Below are positions 3,204 to 15,980 of a DNA stretch of 23,690 bases, in pieces. How positions within the stretch are numbered: position 1 is the stretch's first letter; the number at the start of each line of letters is the position of its first letter. A program made the position numbers and the translations under genes. The DNA is from a virus. The stretch is taken from the IMG/VR virus record IMGVR_UViG_3300007511_000154, positions 1 to 23,690 of that record; one strand, given 5' to 3'. Below the pieces are notes generated by a model, which saw only the letters and a program-made list of their open reading frames with translations, was not told the origin of the DNA and did not search any database.

Positions 3204-3227
3204 ATGTCCTCCTCGATGGCGTACTAT
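3198..3227 (+). promoter_or_regulatory. Candidate sigma70-type promoter for the rightward genes
   Basis: TTGCAA at 3198-3203 and TACTAT at 3222-3227 are separated by 18 bp and each match 4 of 6 consensus bases. Transcription would begin near 3234, just at the dyad 3235-3252. The region is the only divergent intergenic space between the leftward and rightward gene blocks, which supports a promoter here. The -35 hexamer coincides with the TTG start region of the leftward HTH gene. Confidence 0.45.
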
Positions 3228-3234
3228 GCAAAAC

Positions 3235-4152: not shown

Positions 4153-5011
4153 GAGATACGTCCCGACCAATAGATCGGGGATCGTTTGCGTCGGGTTACA
4201 CGGGACCGACGGGACCGCCGAGGGATTCTTTGGTTCGGCGCAACTCCGAGAGATAGCGGACTCGACCGGATGGACTATCGTTTTACCGTTTGATCCGAGC
4301 GGCAAATGGTCGAAGAGCGATCTCCCGTATATCCATGAGGCGGCGCAACAAGAGGCGAACGGACCAATCGTCGTTTGCGGTCACTCCGCCGGTTCCGGGA
4401 TGGCGGTTCGTCTAGCATACGATTACAACGGTTATTATTGTGCGATTTGTTGCGTCCATTCTGGACTCCCGACCGGACTTGTTAATCGGTTCGATCCGGA
4501 CCAATACGAACACCCGATCAATATGCTCAAGATTTGCTCGGTTCACGACAAGCTCGACAATCACGACGACGGGTTACACTTCGCCCGGTTAGTCGCTTGG
4601 GCAAACGGACACGATCCAAAGCTCCCTCGGCGGAGTGGTCACGCCTCGCCAAAGGTCGAGGAGTTCAATTGGTTCAACGGCGTACCGGGCGGCGTTAACG
4701 AGGTCGGGTTCGTGTCGCTACACTGGCAACGGGACGGAGGAGTCCATACTTGGCCTCTCAAGTCGAAAGGTTCCGGGTACGACATAACGCGAGAGATGAT
4801 CGACTTTTTCTTACGCCATTTGAGCGGATCAGTCGCACCCGACGAACCGACGTTCACTATCCGAGCCGACGACCGATTCGGACCGGCGATTGTCCGGGAG
4901 TACGCCGACCGGGTCGAACGCTTCTATCCCGGCGCGAAACAAACGATCGCCGACGCGAGAGAACAGGCTAATAAAATGACGCTTTGGCAAGAGAAACACG
5001 AGACCGAATAA
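4106..5011 (+). CDS. Alpha/beta-hydrolase esterase (PHB depolymerase/LpqC-like)
   Basis: A 301-aa serine hydrolase. The oxyanion-hole motif LHGTDGT is at 31-37 and the nucleophile elbow GHSAG at 92-96 puts the catalytic Ser at 94. Asp151 in ICSVHDKLDNH matches the position of the acid in the HGTADP motif of LpqC-type esterases. His214 in GGVHTWP matches their GGHTWP motif. All triad positions are present. There is no signal peptide or membrane segment. The ATG at 4106 (site GGAGGGAG) is preferred over one at 4076. A C-terminal region of about 60 residues beyond the catalytic fold is charged and helical. The gene lies between regulatory and packaging genes, where lysis genes often sit. The substrate is unknown: cell-envelope ester, polyester or a small molecule are all possible. 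Confidence 0.78.
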   Translation: MASELESYYVNGREYKRYVPTNRSGIVCVGLHGTDGTAEGFFGSAQLREIADSTGWTIVLPFDPSGKWSKSDLPYIHEAAQQEANGPIVVCGHSAGSGMAVRLAYDYNGYYCAICCVHSGLPTGLVNRFDPDQYEHPINMLKICSVHDKLDNHDDGLHFARLVAWANGHDPKLPRRSGHASPKVEEFNWFNGVPGGVNEVGFVSLHWQRDGGVHTWPLKSKGSGYDITREMIDFFLRHLSGSVAPDEPTFTIRADDRFGPAIVREYADRVERFYPGAKQTIADAREQANKMTLWQEKHETE

Positions 5012-5521: not shown

Positions 5522-5743
5522 ATGGATTACCGAGCGTTAACAGAGATTAAAAACGAGATCCGGATTGAACGGGAGCGGAACAATCGACTCTTGAAGTACC
5601 TCGCCGCGATTTGCACAAAAGCCAATATCCCGAAGATCGAGGAATACCTCGGCGCGGACTTGGACCAATTAGTCGACAAGACGCTCGACCCGCGACCAAA
5701 GCCGGAGGACGATCAGGAGACGAGCTCGGATGGCAAAGAATAA
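5522..5743 (+). CDS. Small acidic-tailed protein upstream of the terminase genes
   Basis: A 73-aa protein from ATG 5522, preceded by GGAG seven bases upstream. The frame extends upstream to a GTG at 5423, but that extension (LTGGRGDECDEGSQ) looks non-coding and lacks a good ribosome site. The N-terminal half is helical with a coiled-coil pattern (IKNEIRIERERNNRLLKYLA) and the C-terminal half is acidic and probably disordered. It overlaps the next gene by 14 nt. Small genes in this position occur in many Mu-like phages; I do not recognise a family. Confidence 0.6.
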   Translation: MDYRALTEIKNEIRIERERNNRLLKYLAAICTKANIPKIEEYLGADLDQLVDKTLDPRPKPEDDQETSSDGKE

Positions 5744-6287: not shown

Positions 6288-7623
6288 CGATCAGGTCAAG
6301 CGGTTAACCATCGCCGACAACTTCGCTCCGTTCTTTCGGGATCAGTCCCGGACGCTTTTATCTTGGGGCGGAGCCGGTTCGGCGAAGTCGCACTCCGCCG
6401 CTCAAAAGATTATCCTCCGGGTTAACCGGGCATTCGATCACAACCCGGAGAACGTCCATCGGTTCCTCGCCCTCCGTAAAGTCGGGAAGTCGGTTCGAAA
6501 GTCCGTTTTTCAATTGGTCCGCCATTACATCTCAGAGCTCGGACTTAACGACGTCGTCAAGACGAACCGGTCCGAGTTCTTTTTCGAATGGTCCAACGGG
6601 TCCGTTATCTATTGCGGCGGGATGGACGACCCGGAAAAGATCAAGTCGATCGAGGGTATTACTGGCATTTGGTGTGAGGAGTTTACTGAGTTCTCTCGGG
6701 ACGATTGGCTCCAACTCGACCTCCGATTACGCGGTAACCCTTGGGCATACAAACAACTGATCGGAACGTTCAATCCGATTCAGGTTACGAGCTGGATCGC
6801 GGAGGAATGGTTCGGGGACGATTCGTCCCTAATGCCGACCGGCGACGAGACTGAACTGGACGATCGTTATAAGCGAATAATCGACAAACAGGGAGAGGCT
6901 GTTTGCGCGTTTCAATCCAATTACGACGACAATCCATTCCTCGACGAACCTTACCTCCGCCGGTTGCGCGGACTCGCCGACGTCGACGAGTACTTTCATC
7001 GCGTCTATACGCTCGGACTTTGGGGGCATCCGAAAGGATTGATCCTCCGGAACTGGCGAGTAACCGACGCGGTCTCGACCGATCCGGAGTATTACGATCA
7101 AGTCTCGGCGGGCGCAGACTTCGGATATAACGACCCGGCGACTCTAATTCGTACCGGGATGAAAGACGGAGTCCTCCATATCTTCGGCGAGCCGATATTC
7201 CAAACCGAACTAATCACGAAACAGCTCGTCGAGGAATACCGGACGGCGGGACTCGGACCTCGCGAACGGGTTATCGCCGACTCCGCCGGGACCGAGCCGA
7301 TCCAAGCTATTAGACGCGAGCGGATCGTCGCCGGGATTCGAGCTTGCGAGAAGTATCCGAACATGATCGCGGACGATATCGACTATCTCCTCTCGTTGCC
7401 GGAGATTCTGATTCATCCGTCTTGCGTTAACACGATCCGCGAGTTCGGTTCGTGGAAGTGGAGAGAGGATCGTAAGGGTCGTATATTGGAGGAGCCGGTT
7501 GCTTACGACGATCACGCGATCGACGCGATCCGTTACGCGACTCAACGGTATCGCCGCGCCAAGGCGACGGGCGGCGGATTAGGGTATTCCGGGCGGTCGA
7601 TGAAAAACAGGAGAGGGCGATGA
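6187..7623 (+). CDS. Terminase large subunit
   Basis: A 478-aa packaging motor with ATPase and nuclease domains, PBSX/XtmB-like. A Walker A-type loop SWGGAGSAKSH lies at about 59-69 and the Walker B strand GIWCEEFTEF at about 160-169. RNaseH-like nuclease acidic residues lie in SAGADFGYNDPATLIR (about 307-322), VIADSAG (about 360) and AYDDHAIDAIRYA (about 439-451). I take ATG 6187 as the start, with TTG 6184 also possible; the site TTGGGG is weak. No start codon is seen between the end of the small-subunit gene and the first conserved block, so the long overlap with that gene seems real. The end overlaps the portal gene start by 4 nt (ATGA). Confidence 0.93.
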   Translation: MNSQTPPSIKLSKLFSTPTPDETSCLSRNRAISSDQVKRLTIADNFAPFFRDQSRTLLSWGGAGSAKSHSAAQKIILRVNRAFDHNPENVHRFLALRKVGKSVRKSVFQLVRHYISELGLNDVVKTNRSEFFFEWSNGSVIYCGGMDDPEKIKSIEGITGIWCEEFTEFSRDDWLQLDLRLRGNPWAYKQLIGTFNPIQVTSWIAEEWFGDDSSLMPTGDETELDDRYKRIIDKQGEAVCAFQSNYDDNPFLDEPYLRRLRGLADVDEYFHRVYTLGLWGHPKGLILRNWRVTDAVSTDPEYYDQVSAGADFGYNDPATLIRTGMKDGVLHIFGEPIFQTELITKQLVEEYRTAGLGPRERVIADSAGTEPIQAIRRERIVAGIRACEKYPNMIADDIDYLLSLPEILIHPSCVNTIREFGSWKWREDRKGRILEEPVAYDDHAIDAIRYATQRYRRAKATGGGLGYSGRSMKNRRGR

Positions 7624-9086
7624 ACGTACTCCAGAAACTGGGACGAGCGTTCCGGGCGGGCGCGAAACCGGAGACGATTCCGGATCGCGGGAGTCTCCTC
7701 GAGACCGTTGTCGGACCGACCCGATACGAGACGCAACGAACATATGTAACCGACGGGATCACGCCCGAGGATCTTACCTCGATCCTCAAGTCCGCCGATA
7801 CCGGACACGTCTCCCGCCAATCCGAACTATTCTCCGCCATCGAGGAAAAGGACTCCCGGATCGGCGGCGTACTCCAAACTCGCCGGGTGGCAGTATCTTC
7901 ACTCAAATGGGAGATAATTCCGGCGTCCAGCAAACCAGAGGACGAGGAACGCGCCGCACAAATGAGGGAGTATATCCAAGCGATCCCTCAACTCCGCGAA
8001 TCAATGACAACGCTCCTCGACGCGATCGGGCGAGGGTACTCCGGACTCGAGATCCATTGGGAGTATAAAGACAACCAGCTCTTGCCGAGCGAGTTGACTT
8101 GGGTCCATCCGTCGCGATGGACTTTCTACGGCGTTGATTCGAACGCCGCGAACCCTCTGATCTTTTACGGGACGCCTCAACTATTGACCGACGAGAACCC
8201 GTCCCTCGGTATCCCGCTCCAACCGTTCAAGTTTATTTTCCATCGTGCTCGCCATCGCGCCGGGTATCCGAACACCTCCGGACTTTGTCGGGCGCTTGTC
8301 TGGTATTGGCTCCTCAAGAACTACTCGCTCAAGGATTGGGCGGTATTGCTCGAGCGGTACTCAATGCCATTCCGTTACGCAACCTACCCGGACGGAACCG
8401 AGGACGACGAGAAGCTCGATATGATGAACGAGCTCGCTCAAATGGGTACGGACGGATTCGGTATTGTCCGGGACGACGCCGAGATCCATTTCGTCGACGC
8501 CTTGAATGCGGGACACACGACAACGAACAAAGAGTTCGCCGAGTACCTCGACAAAGAGATCACGATTCTCGTTCTTGGACACGCCGGATTGAGCGAGGGA
8601 ACACCGGGCAAGCTCGGCAACGAACAGGCGGCAAGCGACCTCCGCCAAGACTTACTCGCAGCCGACGCGATGCAATTGGAAGAGACGCTCAACGATCAGC
8701 TCCTCCTCCCGATCTCGATATACAATTTCGGCGAGGACGTCGCGCCTCCGCGCCTCCAATTCTCCGTCGACCCGCCGATCGACCTCCAACGCGAAGCCGA
8801 TCGCGATATCAAGATCCTCGGAACAGGGATTGCAACCTCGGAACGAGCATTTCGCGAAAAGTACAATATCCCGGCTCCGGAATCCGAAAAGGACGAGCTC
8901 GTTATCAAACCTCAATCGAACGGATTCGGAGGGCTCCCGTTCGAAGCGAAGCTCATTCGAGCCAACGCGGCGGACGACGACTCGTCCGAGCTGGATCGGA
9001 TCGAGGACGGTCAAAAAAAAAGAGTCCGGCGTACCTCGATCTCGTCAATGAGATTGAACTTCAAATCCGGGGATGGAACTCCCTAA
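7620..9086 (+). CDS. Portal protein, DUF935/Mu gp29-like
   Basis: A 488-aa portal forming the dodecameric ring for DNA passage. DUF935 hallmarks are the strand VLQTRRVAVSSLKWEI, YSGLEIHWEY, WVHPSRWTF and KDWAVLLERYSMPFRYATYP at about 237-256, then LGHAGLSEGTPG. The ATG at 7620 overlaps the terminase stop. The frame ends at 9086, and the last 22 residues after the A9 run (RVRRTSISSMRLNFKSGDGT and beyond) are basic and do not look like portal sequence. In the -1 frame the sequence continues directly into the F-like minor head protein. The natural product may therefore be this short form plus a portal-F fusion, or only the fusion if the A-run length in this sequence is wrong. Confidence 0.92.
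   Translation: MNVLQKLGRAFRAGAKPETIPDRGSLLETVVGPTRYETQRTYVTDGITPEDLTSILKSADTGHVSRQSELFSAIEEKDSRIGGVLQTRRVAVSSLKWEIIPASSKPEDEERAAQMREYIQAIPQLRESMTTLLDAIGRGYSGLEIHWEYKDNQLLPSELTWVHPSRWTFYGVDSNAANPLIFYGTPQLLTDENPSLGIPLQPFKFIFHRARHRAGYPNTSGLCRALVWYWLLKNYSLKDWAVLLERYSMPFRYATYPDGTEDDEKLDMMNELAQMGTDGFGIVRDDAEIHFVDALNAGHTTTNKEFAEYLDKEITILVLGHAGLSEGTPGKLGNEQAASDLRQDLLAADAMQLEETLNDQLLLPISIYNFGEDVAPPRLQFSVDPPIDLQREADRDIKILGTGIATSERAFREKYNIPAPESEKDELVIKPQSNGFGGLPFEAKLIRANAADDDSSELDRIEDGQKKRVRRTSISSMRLNFKSGDGTP
9013..9022 (+). promoter_or_regulatory. A9G slippery sequence: candidate -1 frameshift site
   Basis: Nine A then G. In the portal frame it reads CAA AAA AAA AGA; after -1 slippage it reads AAA AAA AAG AGT into the F-like frame. 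A AAA AAA in the zero frame fits the X XXY YYZ rule. It is followed by G AGT, as in E. coli dnaX. GAGG at 9003-9006 is a Shine-Dalgarno-like element, closer to the slip site than the 10-14 nt known in dnaX. A weak 5-bp stem (9039-9043 with 9050-9054) lies downstream. A homopolymer sequencing error is the competing explanation. Confidence 0.6.
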
Positions 9087-9901
9087 CCGACTATCCGTCG
9101 CTCACGATCTCCGACGAGGCGGTCCAGTCCCTCGCCGATCAATTGTATGAGTTCTCCGTCCTTTCCTATTTGACCGGCGGATATGCATTCCGAAAGCGCC
9201 ATCTCCCCAAGTCGCTCGAAGCGGCGGCGACTATCGAGGACGTATGGTCCGAACCGTTCCTCGAAGCGGTCGAGTTCTTTATTCGGAAAGGCGTAATCAG
9301 TCGCGCCGACTTCGATAAGTTACCCGACGCTCTGAAGGCGAAGTATTTCACGATCGCCGGGTTCGAGTCCGAGGATTTGATCGAGGCGGTCCAATTGGTC
9401 GTCCGCGACACGATCCAAGACGGAGCGACTCTGAACGAGTTTCGCAAGTCGCTCTCGGAGACGCTCGACCATCTCGGCGTCGGTCCGACTCGTCCTTGGC
9501 ATATCGACTTGATCTATTCGCAAAACGCCTCGAACAGTTATCACGCGGGTTTTTTTGAAACCTTGCACCAACCCGACGTCGTCGAGGAGTTCCCGTATCT
9601 CGAATATCTTTCGATGGACGACGACCGGGTACGACCCGCGCATATCGCTCTCGACGGTCGTATATTCTCTACGAGTGAGATCGGCGCGTTCTATCCGCCT
9701 AACGGATTCCGTTGTCGTTGTACTGTCGCGCCGCTATCGCGAGCCGAGGCCGAGGCCCGAGGAGTTGTCGGGCCTGACCAAATCCCCGAGACGATCACGA
9801 TTACTCTAGAAGACGGGACGGAGAGAACCTATCCGGTTGTACCGGACAAGGGATTCAACGCGGACCCGAGCGAGGCGTTCCGCGAACCTCCGGAGCGTTG
9901 A
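9014..9901 (+). CDS. Mu F-like minor head protein, read in the -1 frame after the portal
   Basis: From the slippery site this frame encodes about 295 aa ending in TGA at 9901. Features typical of the Mu F / SPP1 gp7 minor head family include FLEAVEFFIRKGVISRADFD, a stretch through AKYFTIAGF and DLIEAVQLVVRDTIQDG, the polar block LIYSQNASNSYHAGFFETLH, VRPAHIALDGRIF, and the C-terminal YPPNGFRCRCTV. No ATG or GTG occurs in this frame from about 8900 to the conserved core; the first canonical start is a TTG near 9142, inside the coding region and without a ribosome site. It is therefore most simply made as a portal-F fusion by -1 frameshifting. The last base pair overlaps the next gene (TGATG). 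Its role is head assembly, probably at the portal vertex. Confidence 0.82.
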   Translation, partial: KKKSPAYLDLVNEIELQIRGWNSLTDYPSLTISDEAVQSLADQLYEFSVLSYLTGGYAFRKRHLPKSLEAAATIEDVWSEPFLEAVEFFIRKGVISRADFDKLPDALKAKYFTIAGFESEDLIEAVQLVVRDTIQDGATLNEFRKSLSETLDHLGVGPTRPWHIDLIYSQNASNSYHAGFFETLHQPDVVEEFPYLEYLSMDDDRVRPAHIALDGRIFSTSEIGAFYPPNGFRCRCTVAPLSRAEAEARGVVGPDQIPETITITLEDGTERTYPVVPDKGFNADPSEAFREPPER

Positions 9902-11067
9902 TGAAACGCCGTCCCAATTCTAAGAACTTTGGAACCGAACCGCGTCGGCTCAAAGCCGATCACGGCGACGGGACTCCTCCCACAACCCTCCATCTCTTCC
10001 CGTTCGGGATGTTTCTCGGACACCCGGTCGGAGCCTTTGAAGTAACCGAACTCGCAGTCCAACAAATGATCGCGAACTTTTCAAAGTTCGATATCGACGT
10101 TGTCGTCGACTTCGATCACGCGACCGAGGAATGGTCGTCCGTCGGCGATACCGCCAAAGCGGCGGGTTGGATTAAAAAGATTTGGCGCGAGGACGACGGT
10201 TTATACGGCGAGGTCGAATGGAACGCCGACGCCGCCGAGGCAATTGCGGCGGGCGAATGGCGTTATATCTCTCCGTCTTGGTGGACTGACGCACAAGATC
10301 CAGTAACCGGCGACGCTATCGGATGGCGACTCGTTTCGGTCGGACTGGTTAACCGCCCGTACTTCGATGAACTCGGGGCGATAGCAAAAGACAAAGGAGT
10401 CGACGAAATGACGCTCGATCCAAAGACTATCGAGGCGCTCGGATTGAACGCCGACGCGACCGACGAACAGATTAACGAAGCTCTTACCAAACGCCTCGAA
10501 TCCGACTCGCAAGACGACGTCGCCAAGACGCTCGGTTTCGAATCGTTCGACGCGATGAAAGAGAAGCTCGCGGCGGAGTCAACCGACGAGCCGACCAACG
10601 AACCAACCGTCGACGAGACTAAGATCGTCTCGGACGAAGTCGCCTCAATGTTCGACCTCGAACCGGGAGCGACCGTTAGCGACGTCCGCGCCGCGAAGCT
10701 CAAGCTCCAGATCGGCGACGACACTATCGCGCAACGCCTCGCCAAACTCGAAGAGGATCGGGCAAACGAGCGGGTCGACGTACTCATCGCCAAGGCGAAA
10801 GAGGACGGTAAGATCACTCCGGCGACGGAGAAAGACTTCCGTATCCTCGCCAAGTCCAACCCGGAACAGGTCGAGAAGCTTTTGGCCTCGGCTCCTCGTG
10901 TTGTCGACTTGGATAATCACAACACGAACGACCCGACGAGCAACGGCGCGGAGACCTACGTTCTCTCCGCCAAGGACAAGAAAGTCGCCGCCTCGCTCGG
11001 ACACGATCTCGAAGTTCACGCGAAGCATTCCGCCAAGATCGAAGACGTTAAGGCGGGCAAGCGATAA
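9901..11067 (+). CDS. Mu I-like prohead protease with C-terminal scaffold
   Basis: A 388-aa protein. Residues 1 to about 165 match the Mu I-type maturation protease: LFPFGMFLGHPVGAFEVT, VVVDFDHATEEW, AAGWIKKIW, YGEVEWNADA, EWRYISPSWWTD, and SVGLVNRPYF. Residues about 170-388 are charged and helical, as expected of a scaffold (EALTKRLESDSQDDVAKTLG and RLAKLEEDRANERVD), with a low-complexity TDEPTNEPTVDE linker. The ATG at 9901 overlaps the F-like stop; an in-frame TTG at 9898 is less likely. In Mu, gene I encodes the protease and an internal start yields the scaffold Z; an internal start is also visible here. It would cleave scaffold and head proteins during prohead maturation. Confidence 0.88.
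   Translation: MKRRPNSKNFGTEPRRLKADHGDGTPPTTLHLFPFGMFLGHPVGAFEVTELAVQQMIANFSKFDIDVVVDFDHATEEWSSVGDTAKAAGWIKKIWREDDGLYGEVEWNADAAEAIAAGEWRYISPSWWTDAQDPVTGDAIGWRLVSVGLVNRPYFDELGAIAKDKGVDEMTLDPKTIEALGLNADATDEQINEALTKRLESDSQDDVAKTLGFESFDAMKEKLAAESTDEPTNEPTVDETKIVSDEVASMFDLEPGATVSDVRAAKLKLQIGDDTIAQRLAKLEEDRANERVDVLIAKAKEDGKITPATEKDFRILAKSNPEQVEKLLASAPRVVDLDNHNTNDPTSNGAETYVLSAKDKKVAASLGHDLEVHAKHSAKIEDVKAGKR
10408..11067 (+). CDS. Nested in-frame scaffold (Mu Z-like) from an internal start
   Basis: Inside the protease gene, ATG 10408 is preceded by AAAGGAG (10393-10399) at 8 nt, a stronger ribosome site than that of many genes here. The frame is shared and gives 219 aa beginning MTLDPKTIEALGLNADATDE, exactly at the protease-scaffold junction. 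This copies the Mu I/Z arrangement, where separate scaffold is made in excess over the protease-scaffold fusion. Expression is inferred from the ribosome site and the domain boundary. Confidence 0.65.
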   Translation: MTLDPKTIEALGLNADATDEQINEALTKRLESDSQDDVAKTLGFESFDAMKEKLAAESTDEPTNEPTVDETKIVSDEVASMFDLEPGATVSDVRAAKLKLQIGDDTIAQRLAKLEEDRANERVDVLIAKAKEDGKITPATEKDFRILAKSNPEQVEKLLASAPRVVDLDNHNTNDPTSNGAETYVLSAKDKKVAASLGHDLEVHAKHSAKIEDVKAGKR

Positions 11068-14687: not shown

Positions 14688-15980
14688 ATGGCAGTCGATA
14701 CAACTAATATCGCGTTCGGGACGGCGTTTATCAGGTTCCTCCCTCACCAAATAGGAGCGGACTATTCGTCGACGGGAGAGCCGTTCCTTGCGACAATGCT
14801 CGACTCGACGGTTTATATCGGTTTCACAACGAACGGCGGCGAAGTCCAGCTCGACGCGAACGTTCTCGAGTTTGAAGTTCAAGAGGAGACGTTCCCGGTT
14901 GGACTCGGTGTCGTCTCGGCGTCGACAAAAATATCGTTCGAGTCTCCCAATCTCGGGAACGAGTTACTCTTAGCCCGAACGCTCGGGTTGTTGGAGAACG
15001 AAGAGGAGACGATTAGCTCCAAGGAATACTATACAGCGACCGGGATCAAGGTAATTCCGCAAGGGTTCGGCGTGTTGATATCGCAACGTCGCCAAGACGG
15101 GAACGGGTTCGATCACATATACGCGCCGAACTGCCAGATCGACGCCTCGGATTGGGCGGTTACATATGCGAGGACCGAGCTCCGAAAAAAGACGATAACC
15201 CTAATCGCTCACGCGAGCGATCAGGCGGCGCTCCTCATGCCATTGCAAGGCGCGAATAAACACGCCTCAATCTCGTATCTCGAGCAAGCGGCGGCGACGG
15301 TCGAGTTTTCGAAATGTCTCCGACACGACGGGTCTCATACAACCGACAACCCGGTCCATATGTCTCACGGGTTAGGGATCGACGCCGGGGCGGCTGAGAT
15401 CACGACCGGCGGATACGGGAGCGTCGATCGTGATTCCGAACATATCGTCTCTCATGGCGAGTATATGATCCGTCTCTCGTCGGTAACTTCGGGAAACGAG
15501 GTATTTATTGCTTGCGGCGTACCGTCGGCCCTGGCGTCGACCGGAGCGTCGGAACATCATTGGAACCGAACCGCGTCGGCTCAATGGACGCTTGCGGCGA
15601 AACATATGACATATACCGCGCCAATGATTATCCGAGCGTTCGATATGGAGGGACAACTCCTCACGCCGACCGATATCACTTATACGGACGGAGCGCCGGG
15701 AGTCGGACAAATCGTCCTCGACTTTGCGTCCGCCGTCGCGGGTCGGGCGATCGTTTGTTTGACTGGACCGAACGGAGCGTTAACTGCGTCGCCAACACCG
15801 GCGACGACTTGGGTTATATCGGCGGCGGGTAATACCGATCATCTCCCGTTTATCTTTGCTTGTATGGATGGATCGAACAACCCGATCGAACCGCTCTCGT
15901 ACTCATACGACGGCGGAGCCGAAGAGTACACATTGAACTGGGGATCGTCTCAAGCGGGGACGTACCGCGCCATTTTTTAA
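14688..15980 (+). CDS. Tail tube-type protein with C-terminal extension
   Basis: A 430-aa protein. Residues about 1-195 read as a tail tube-like beta fold (VYIGFTTNGGEVQLDANVLE, SISFESPNL-like strand, YYTATGIKVIPQGFGVLISQ, IYAPNCQIDASDWAVTYART and KKTITLIAHASDQAA). The same block recurs in the next gene. Residues about 200-430 add repeated beta-sandwich-like sequence (FIACGVPSALASTG, APMIIRAFDMEGQLL, GAPGVGQIVLDFASAVAG) that could be Ig-like decoration on the tail surface. The start is clear (AGGAGCCGACG, ATG). Alternatives are a minor tube variant or a collar protein. Confidence 0.6.
   Translation: MAVDTTNIAFGTAFIRFLPHQIGADYSSTGEPFLATMLDSTVYIGFTTNGGEVQLDANVLEFEVQEETFPVGLGVVSASTKISFESPNLGNELLLARTLGLLENEEETISSKEYYTATGIKVIPQGFGVLISQRRQDGNGFDHIYAPNCQIDASDWAVTYARTELRKKTITLIAHASDQAALLMPLQGANKHASISYLEQAAATVEFSKCLRHDGSHTTDNPVHMSHGLGIDAGAAEITTGGYGSVDRDSEHIVSHGEYMIRLSSVTSGNEVFIACGVPSALASTGASEHHWNRTASAQWTLAAKHMTYTAPMIIRAFDMEGQLLTPTDITYTDGAPGVGQIVLDFASAVAGRAIVCLTGPNGALTASPTPATTWVISAAGNTDHLPFIFACMDGSNNPIEPLSYSYDGGAEEYTLNWGSSQAGTYRAIF

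Follow-up and report, generated by a model that had tools for sequence, protein, structure and literature searches.

A probable recoding site at an A9 run in a Mu-type portal gene, with the portal C-terminal domain and an F domain in the -1 frame

The portal gene in a 23,690-base IMG/VR virus record, analysed here over its whole length (the window), appears to carry a maintained recoding site, at a probability of about 0.8. Comparison of related sequences suggests that this gene would specify two products, a short portal protein and a -1-frame fusion of the portal body, the portal C-terminal domain and the minor head protein F. The run of nine A residues at the junction is confirmed to be real and to mark the place where the Mu-type portal frame loses sense and the -1 frame gains it. 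The same transition, at A9 or A10 in the same position, is found in six diverged loci including the window, which supports the proposal of the initial annotation that portal and F are joined by recoding at the run.

The portal reading frame and the A9 run

The window contains a Mu-type head module consisting of terminase, portal, F, protease I and the major head protein gpT. The portal open reading frame (ORF) extends from 7620 to 9086, and its stop codon lies 71 nt past the first A of the run (Table 1). Residues 69–417 match Portal_Mu (PF06074) with an E-value of 1.9e-88 and a score of 297.4 bits, which exceeds the gathering cut-off of 23.9, and the protein also matches the portal family PHROG 113. 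Phmmer matches in the PDB include the portal of JBD30 (8rka_A, E 3.8e-45), which is the closest solved structure, and 9khx_X (E 1.2e-43).

The A9 run, read directly from the window and followed by GAGTCC, is the only homopolymer of at least 8 in the 23,690 bases. The zero-frame codons at the run are CAA AAA AAA AGA, and the heptamer in phase is A_AAA_AAA at 9014–9020. A second record, IMGVR_UViG_3300009378_000077, is 99.86–99.97% identical to the window and ungapped over the stretches compared, with scattered single-nucleotide differences, and has the same A9. Elsewhere in the window, a T7 run at 9550–9556 inside F (codons GGT TTT TTT GAA) forms an in-phase T_TTT_TTT heptamer that may be due to chance. 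A 25-bp sequence is repeated exactly and in direct orientation at 9929–9953 in the protease gene and at 15560–15584 in a tail-region gene, against 0 such repeats expected from 100 shuffles, the two copies lying in different reading frames.

Table 1. Features of the window around the portal–F junction
Feature	Position	Strand	Basis or remark
Body and linker of the Mu-type portal, zero frame, as far as the run	7620..9012	+	Portal_Mu, PHROG 113 and PDB phmmer matches
GAGG, Shine-Dalgarno-like	9003..9006	+	read directly; not conserved in relatives
A9 run, proposed recoding site	9013..9021	+	A9/A10 at the same place in 6/6 cut-short portal loci
Zero-frame tail of the putative short portal, RVRRTSISSMRLNFKSGDGTP, TAA at 9084-9086	9022..9086	+	about 21 residues after the run
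Portal C-terminal helical domain, -1 frame	9026..9181 (approximate limits)	+	alignment with the -1 frames of the other five loci
TTG, first possible usual start, -1 frame	9143..9145	+	falls within the portal C-terminal domain and lacks a preceding Shine-Dalgarno-like sequence
F domain (minor head protein), same -1 frame	9251..9901, stop 9899-9901	+	Phage_Mu_F, PHROG 220

The -1 frame after the run

In ordinary Mu-type relatives, a helical domain ends the portal ORF (L010: LLDSVHSLEEFRDRLMEAYPAMTTRQLADAMADGLAAASLAGRD) and F starts in another frame. This helical C-terminal domain is absent throughout the portal frame of the window, and the -1 frame gives AYLDLVNEIELQIRGWNSLTDYPSLTISDEAVQSLADQLYEFSVLSYLTGG followed by F; the -1-frame sequence past the junction at the run is SPAYLDLVNEIELQIR. 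The -1 frame is open from 8285, with no stop until after 9898, and upstream of the run it is an arginine-rich shadow of the portal frame. The six -1 ORFs align with one another, and the window and L018 are 46% identical over this ORF. When compared with ordinary portal tails, the stretch from the four other relatives gives an hhalign probability of 95.6% and an E-value of 1.2e-8 (shuffled maximum 1.2%); the same stretch from the window and L018 gives 4.7% (column-shuffled maximum 2.4%), and the window stretch alone matches weakly (HMM E 0.25 in a nine-sequence search). The C-terminal domain is helical in a low-confidence AlphaFold model of the -1 frame (mean pLDDT 58.3, which is poor). The F domain matches Phage_Mu_F (PF04233) at 9386–9727 with an E-value of 3.2e-13 and 50.8 bits, exceeding the gathering cut-off of 29.6, and matches PHROG 220 with an E-value of 3.9e-48. 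Four PDB matches to the F frame, which resemble chance or composition, were rejected.

Since the C-terminal domain sits in the -1 frame, is matched clearly in four relatives and aligns among all six, the run splits the portal itself, and recoding would add both the portal C-terminal domain and F to the body, giving a protein of about 760 aa in total. The initial annotation had described conserved sequence directly after the A9 run in the F-like frame; the conservation stands, whereas the first conserved part is the portal C-terminal domain rather than F. The idea that F merely lacks a start codon was likewise rejected, the -1 frame opening with that domain.

The run in relatives of the window

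Portal-profile scans covering IMG/VR and a set with one genome for each species, plus eight phage records, yielded 402 loci including the window, of which 228 are distinct by exact shared 400-mers, some of these still being close kin. When the F and the portal of the window served as single-protein queries, the near-identical record was the sole match among viral contigs, and genome contigs gave none; the relatives were reached by profile scans with narrower alignments, the first and most distant alignment being too diverse for patterns. F lies in another frame than the portal in 173 of the 228 loci, in the same frame in three (L075, L090 and L102), and is not found by the F profile in 52. The portal tail past the body is at least 92 aa long in 167 of the 173 and is only 27, 27, 33, 37, 44 and 55 aa long in the other six. 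In these cut-short loci, the portal is cut at an A9 (window, L126) or A10 (L018, L029, L218, L219) at the same protein position with a -1 continuation in every case, and the codon phase of the first A varies. The comparison of run length and frame that the initial annotation had proposed as a check agrees with its reading; relatives with a separate, well-started F, which it had named as contrary evidence, do exist, at 167 of the 228 loci, and none of the six cut-short loci belongs to these.

No other homopolymer of at least 9 is present in any of the six over the stretch covered for each locus. A run of at least nine A at the junction occurs in only one of the 167 separate-F loci (L168, with 35% GC and an intact portal), in one of the three in-frame fusions and in none of the 52 others. 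The expected number of such runs per 270 nt is 0.001–0.054 under a third-order Markov model of each locus, the sequences used to train these models having contained the runs themselves. Portal identity among the six, all of which are metagenome assemblies, is 41–74% in the pairs measured. In the tree, they fall into two branches within a fusion-rich group, the window and L018 in one and the other four together with L188 in the other. A single origin of the six is not rejected (p-AU 0.186), the window standing on a very long branch. Of the 167 other separate-F loci, the 109-row tree samples one in three (55 in all), and 7 loci of other classes are absent from it; a 47-row tree is a hand-picked part of this set.

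The remaining loci include portals of other arrangements. Four of the 52 loci without a profile F are cut by contig ends, and 20 of the 48 uncut ones have long portal ORFs; three of these that were tested (L019, L021 and L040) give weak Phage_Mu_F matches below the gathering score (E 7.6e-4, 6.3e-3 and 1.8e-3, respectively), suggesting that they are probably divergent in-frame fusions. At 25 distinct loci, the portal ends at most 60 aa past the body and no F is found by profile. These Mu-type portals without a C-terminal domain or a profile F nearby (e.g. L153, L182 and L190) come in many cases from delta-proteobacterial and Nitrospirae metagenome-assembled genomes (MAGs). In L075 (245–2890), the C-terminal part of the in-frame portal–F fusion also matches PBECR2, a nuclease-like domain, with an E-value of 1.7e-12. 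In L126, an in-frame TGA at 5585–5587 in F stands where relatives keep a Cys codon (NGFNC), and conserved sequence continues past it; this TGA would reflect a nonsense change, with selenocysteine or codon reassignment as further possibilities.

The putative short portal

The zero-frame tail is conserved within the subclade of L029, L126, L218 and L219, where it reads KKKIPIGSRLVEISD, KKKVPIGSRLVDLDE, KKKVLIPVGSRLLSSD and KKKIPIGSRLVSFR, with a stop after each. L188, which is a MAG contig and groups within this subclade, retains RKVRIPVGSRLIDFDPEIEA ahead of its stop although both the run and the -1 ORF are gone, so that its region at about 4700–4780 is a natural control with a zero-frame portal tail in the absence of the A-run and the -1 reading frame. 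Because the tail is kept in this subclade, even in L188, the short portal is probably a real product there. The zero-frame tails of the window and L018 are unlike each other, and since the tail is not conserved in that branch, the evidence for the short form is the reading frame itself.

These observations bear on whether the true gene is a single in-frame fusion, with a run that is mutable through phase variation at the DNA level or misread during assembly. A-runs are prone to indels, and in L090 an A10 at 3224–3233 lies in the same portal–F linker with the portal and F in one frame. However, all six loci are in the same -1 state despite their differing run lengths and codon phases, the two assemblies that are 99.9% alike agree on A9, and the zero-frame tail is kept in one subclade and in L188, which lacks the run, making this explanation very improbable. 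A sequencing error at the run was rejected on the same grounds.

Evidence for translation of the -1 frame

The -1 frame of the window has no ATG, GTG or TTG from 8863, 150 nt before the run, to 9142, so that the start-codon gap noticed at first is confirmed, with the first TTG at 9143, one nucleotide from the position given then. In L018, L126, L218 and L219, a -1-frame stop lies 1–45 nt upstream of the run; therefore, an upstream start of the -1 ORF is ruled out in these loci. Counted from the first A of the run, the earliest usual start downstream is a TTG at +130 in the window, an ATG at +33 in L018, a GTG at +143 in L029, a TTG at +203 in L126, a TTG at +147 in L218 and an ATG at +98 in L219; hence, five of the six loci have no usual start within 97 nt after the run.

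For the codons that lie after the zero-frame stop and before the first start, pS is higher than pN in each of the seven pairs, clearly so in five, although the counts are small (17–49 codons) and the pairs are not independent. The pS/pN values are 0.73/0.27 for L029–L218, 0.90/0.34 for L029–L219, 0.73/0.40 for L218–L219, 0.75/0.46 for L126–L218 and 0.69/0.49 for L029–L126. The difference is weak for L126–L219 (0.73/0.62), and the values hardly differ for the window and L018 (0.49/0.46 over 17 codons). As judged from these substitution patterns, the -1 codons upstream of any usual start evolve as if translated in one subclade, the L029 group.

It is improbable that recoding plays no part and that the C-terminal domain and F form a separate protein whose translation begins, once the short portal has terminated, at an unusual start codon or one further downstream. 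The TTG of the window could serve in this way, and in L018, which is an exception, an ATGATG overlaps the portal TGA and F could start by ordinary coupled initiation at that ATG. Across the six loci, however, the starts vary in kind and place and most lie inside the C-terminal domain, the conserved part of the -1 frame in the L029 subclade includes codons that precede the first usual start, and a separate start leaves the presence of a run of 9 or 10 in all six unexplained.

Polymerase slippage and ribosomal frameshifting

Two routes could yield the short portal and the fusion. Transcriptional slippage calls for a run of about nine or more A or T at the frame transition, and A9 or A10 is present in 6/6 loci; both the site and the direction of the transition are kept across these diverged relatives, all six being -1. 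Slippage of bacterial RNA polymerase in vivo is efficient on runs of 9 A or T and generates the dnaX products of Thermus (PMC5009743). Ribosomal -1 frameshifting is used by dnaX and by tail-chaperone genes (PMC5009743, PMC6316719), and a programmed shift on A_AAA_AAA, which is in phase in 6/6 loci, is a possible but somewhat doubtful source of the same two products. The initial annotation likened AAAAAAAAAG AGT to the dnaX site; this likeness does not hold, because the dnaX heptamer A_AAA_AAG, the stronger one, is out of phase in the window and in phase in 0/6 loci. The Shine-Dalgarno-like GAGG that it had pointed out upstream is indeed present in the window but is not conserved: GAGAGG is found near the run of L219 and none is evident by eye in the other four, suggesting that the GAGG is probably incidental. 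No unusual downstream structure was found in seven pseudoknot-free folds (z -0.94 to 1.10). A dnaX-like signal was accordingly rejected on phase, Shine-Dalgarno element and structure. Since the runs are always 9–10 long although the in-phase heptamer needs only 7, no conserved Shine-Dalgarno-like element is found and the folds are unremarkable, slippage by RNA polymerase appears to explain the sequences somewhat better than ribosomal frameshifting, by about 60:40.

Discussion

Under the recoding reading, a short portal of 488 aa, terminating shortly past the body, would result when the A9 run is decoded in the usual way. A -1 shift at the run in a fraction of expression events, arising from mRNAs with one extra A if slippage acts as in Thermus dnaX, would give the fusion of body, C-terminal helical domain and F. 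Both kinds of subunit would join one portal ring, and a few of the twelve subunits would hold F inside the head. The crown and wing of the JBD30 portal remain within the head (PMC11445458), and the portal C-terminal domain is assumed here to belong to this inner, crown or wing part. The occurrence of the shift, its mechanism and rate, mixed rings, and the set, sub-stoichiometric number of F domains suggested at the outset are what we infer from this scheme. Counting against recoding are the weak match of the window to the portal tail profile, the unlike zero-frame tails of the window and L018 and their nearly equal pS and pN, the ATG that L018 has of its own, the TGA in L126, and the origin of all six sequences in metagenome assemblies.

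The chances are about even for the more specific idea that, in a group of Mu-type phages, each head receives its number of F domains through slippage within the portal gene, short portals and a few fusions together making up a mosaic ring. The in-frame A10 of L090, where slippage would yield the short form, and the -1 arrangement would then be two ways to the same pair of proteins, each with the opposite default frame, a parallel to the evolution of dnaX. The Thermus thermophilus dnaX gene resembles the portal gene in having an intragenic run of 9 A/T, short and long forms with a common N-terminus, and no stimulator; unlike the portal gene, its long form is in frame and slippage produces the short one, and the gene and its role differ (PMC5009743). 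L090 shares this arrangement, with the long form in frame.

The fusion of portal and F had also been regarded as unusual for Mu-like heads. This view is not borne out, because in-frame fusions are present among the relatives, and portal–MuF single genes are already known in Microbacterium phages of clusters EA3, EA5, EA8 and EB (PMC7302621). The likeness lies in the covalent domain arrangement and does not imply that those portals are homologous to the Mu type; each of them is one uninterrupted gene that presumably places MuF on all subunits, whereas the window and its five relatives have two frames with an A-run between them. SPP1 likewise keeps an F-like protein, gp7, at its portal gp6 in few copies, but from separate genes and by binding rather than fusion (PMC6316719); a minority fusion would hold a few copies of F covalently instead. 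Recoding in phage head and tail genes is known as well: SPP1 17.1/17.1* and 17.5/17.5* and the capsid and tail shaft proteins of Listeria PSA gain a minority C-terminal extension in this way, their recoding being ribosomal, with no portal among the cases described in these sources (PMC6316719, PMC5009743). Ordinary Mu-type head genes, as in Mu and JBD30-like phages, have the same order of portal, F and protease and homologous domains, but the C-terminal domain is in the frame of the portal itself and F is started independently, in many cases overlapping with the end of the portal. Published recoding of a portal gene was not found in the open-licence PMC literature; the word "portal" is absent from the first 300,000 characters of PMC5009743 and from the available text of PMC3711429 and PMC10885494.

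Portals are twelve-fold rings, yet F- or gp7-like proteins are taken in as few copies. If the proposed recoding is true, a fixed slippage rate that produces a mosaic ring would be a simple genetic way for a symmetric ring to gain a minority partner, and the run length offers a handle for testing this idea. The portal would then join the phage structural genes that use recoding, and in phages of this kind gene callers would annotate the portal as truncated and either start F late or miss it.
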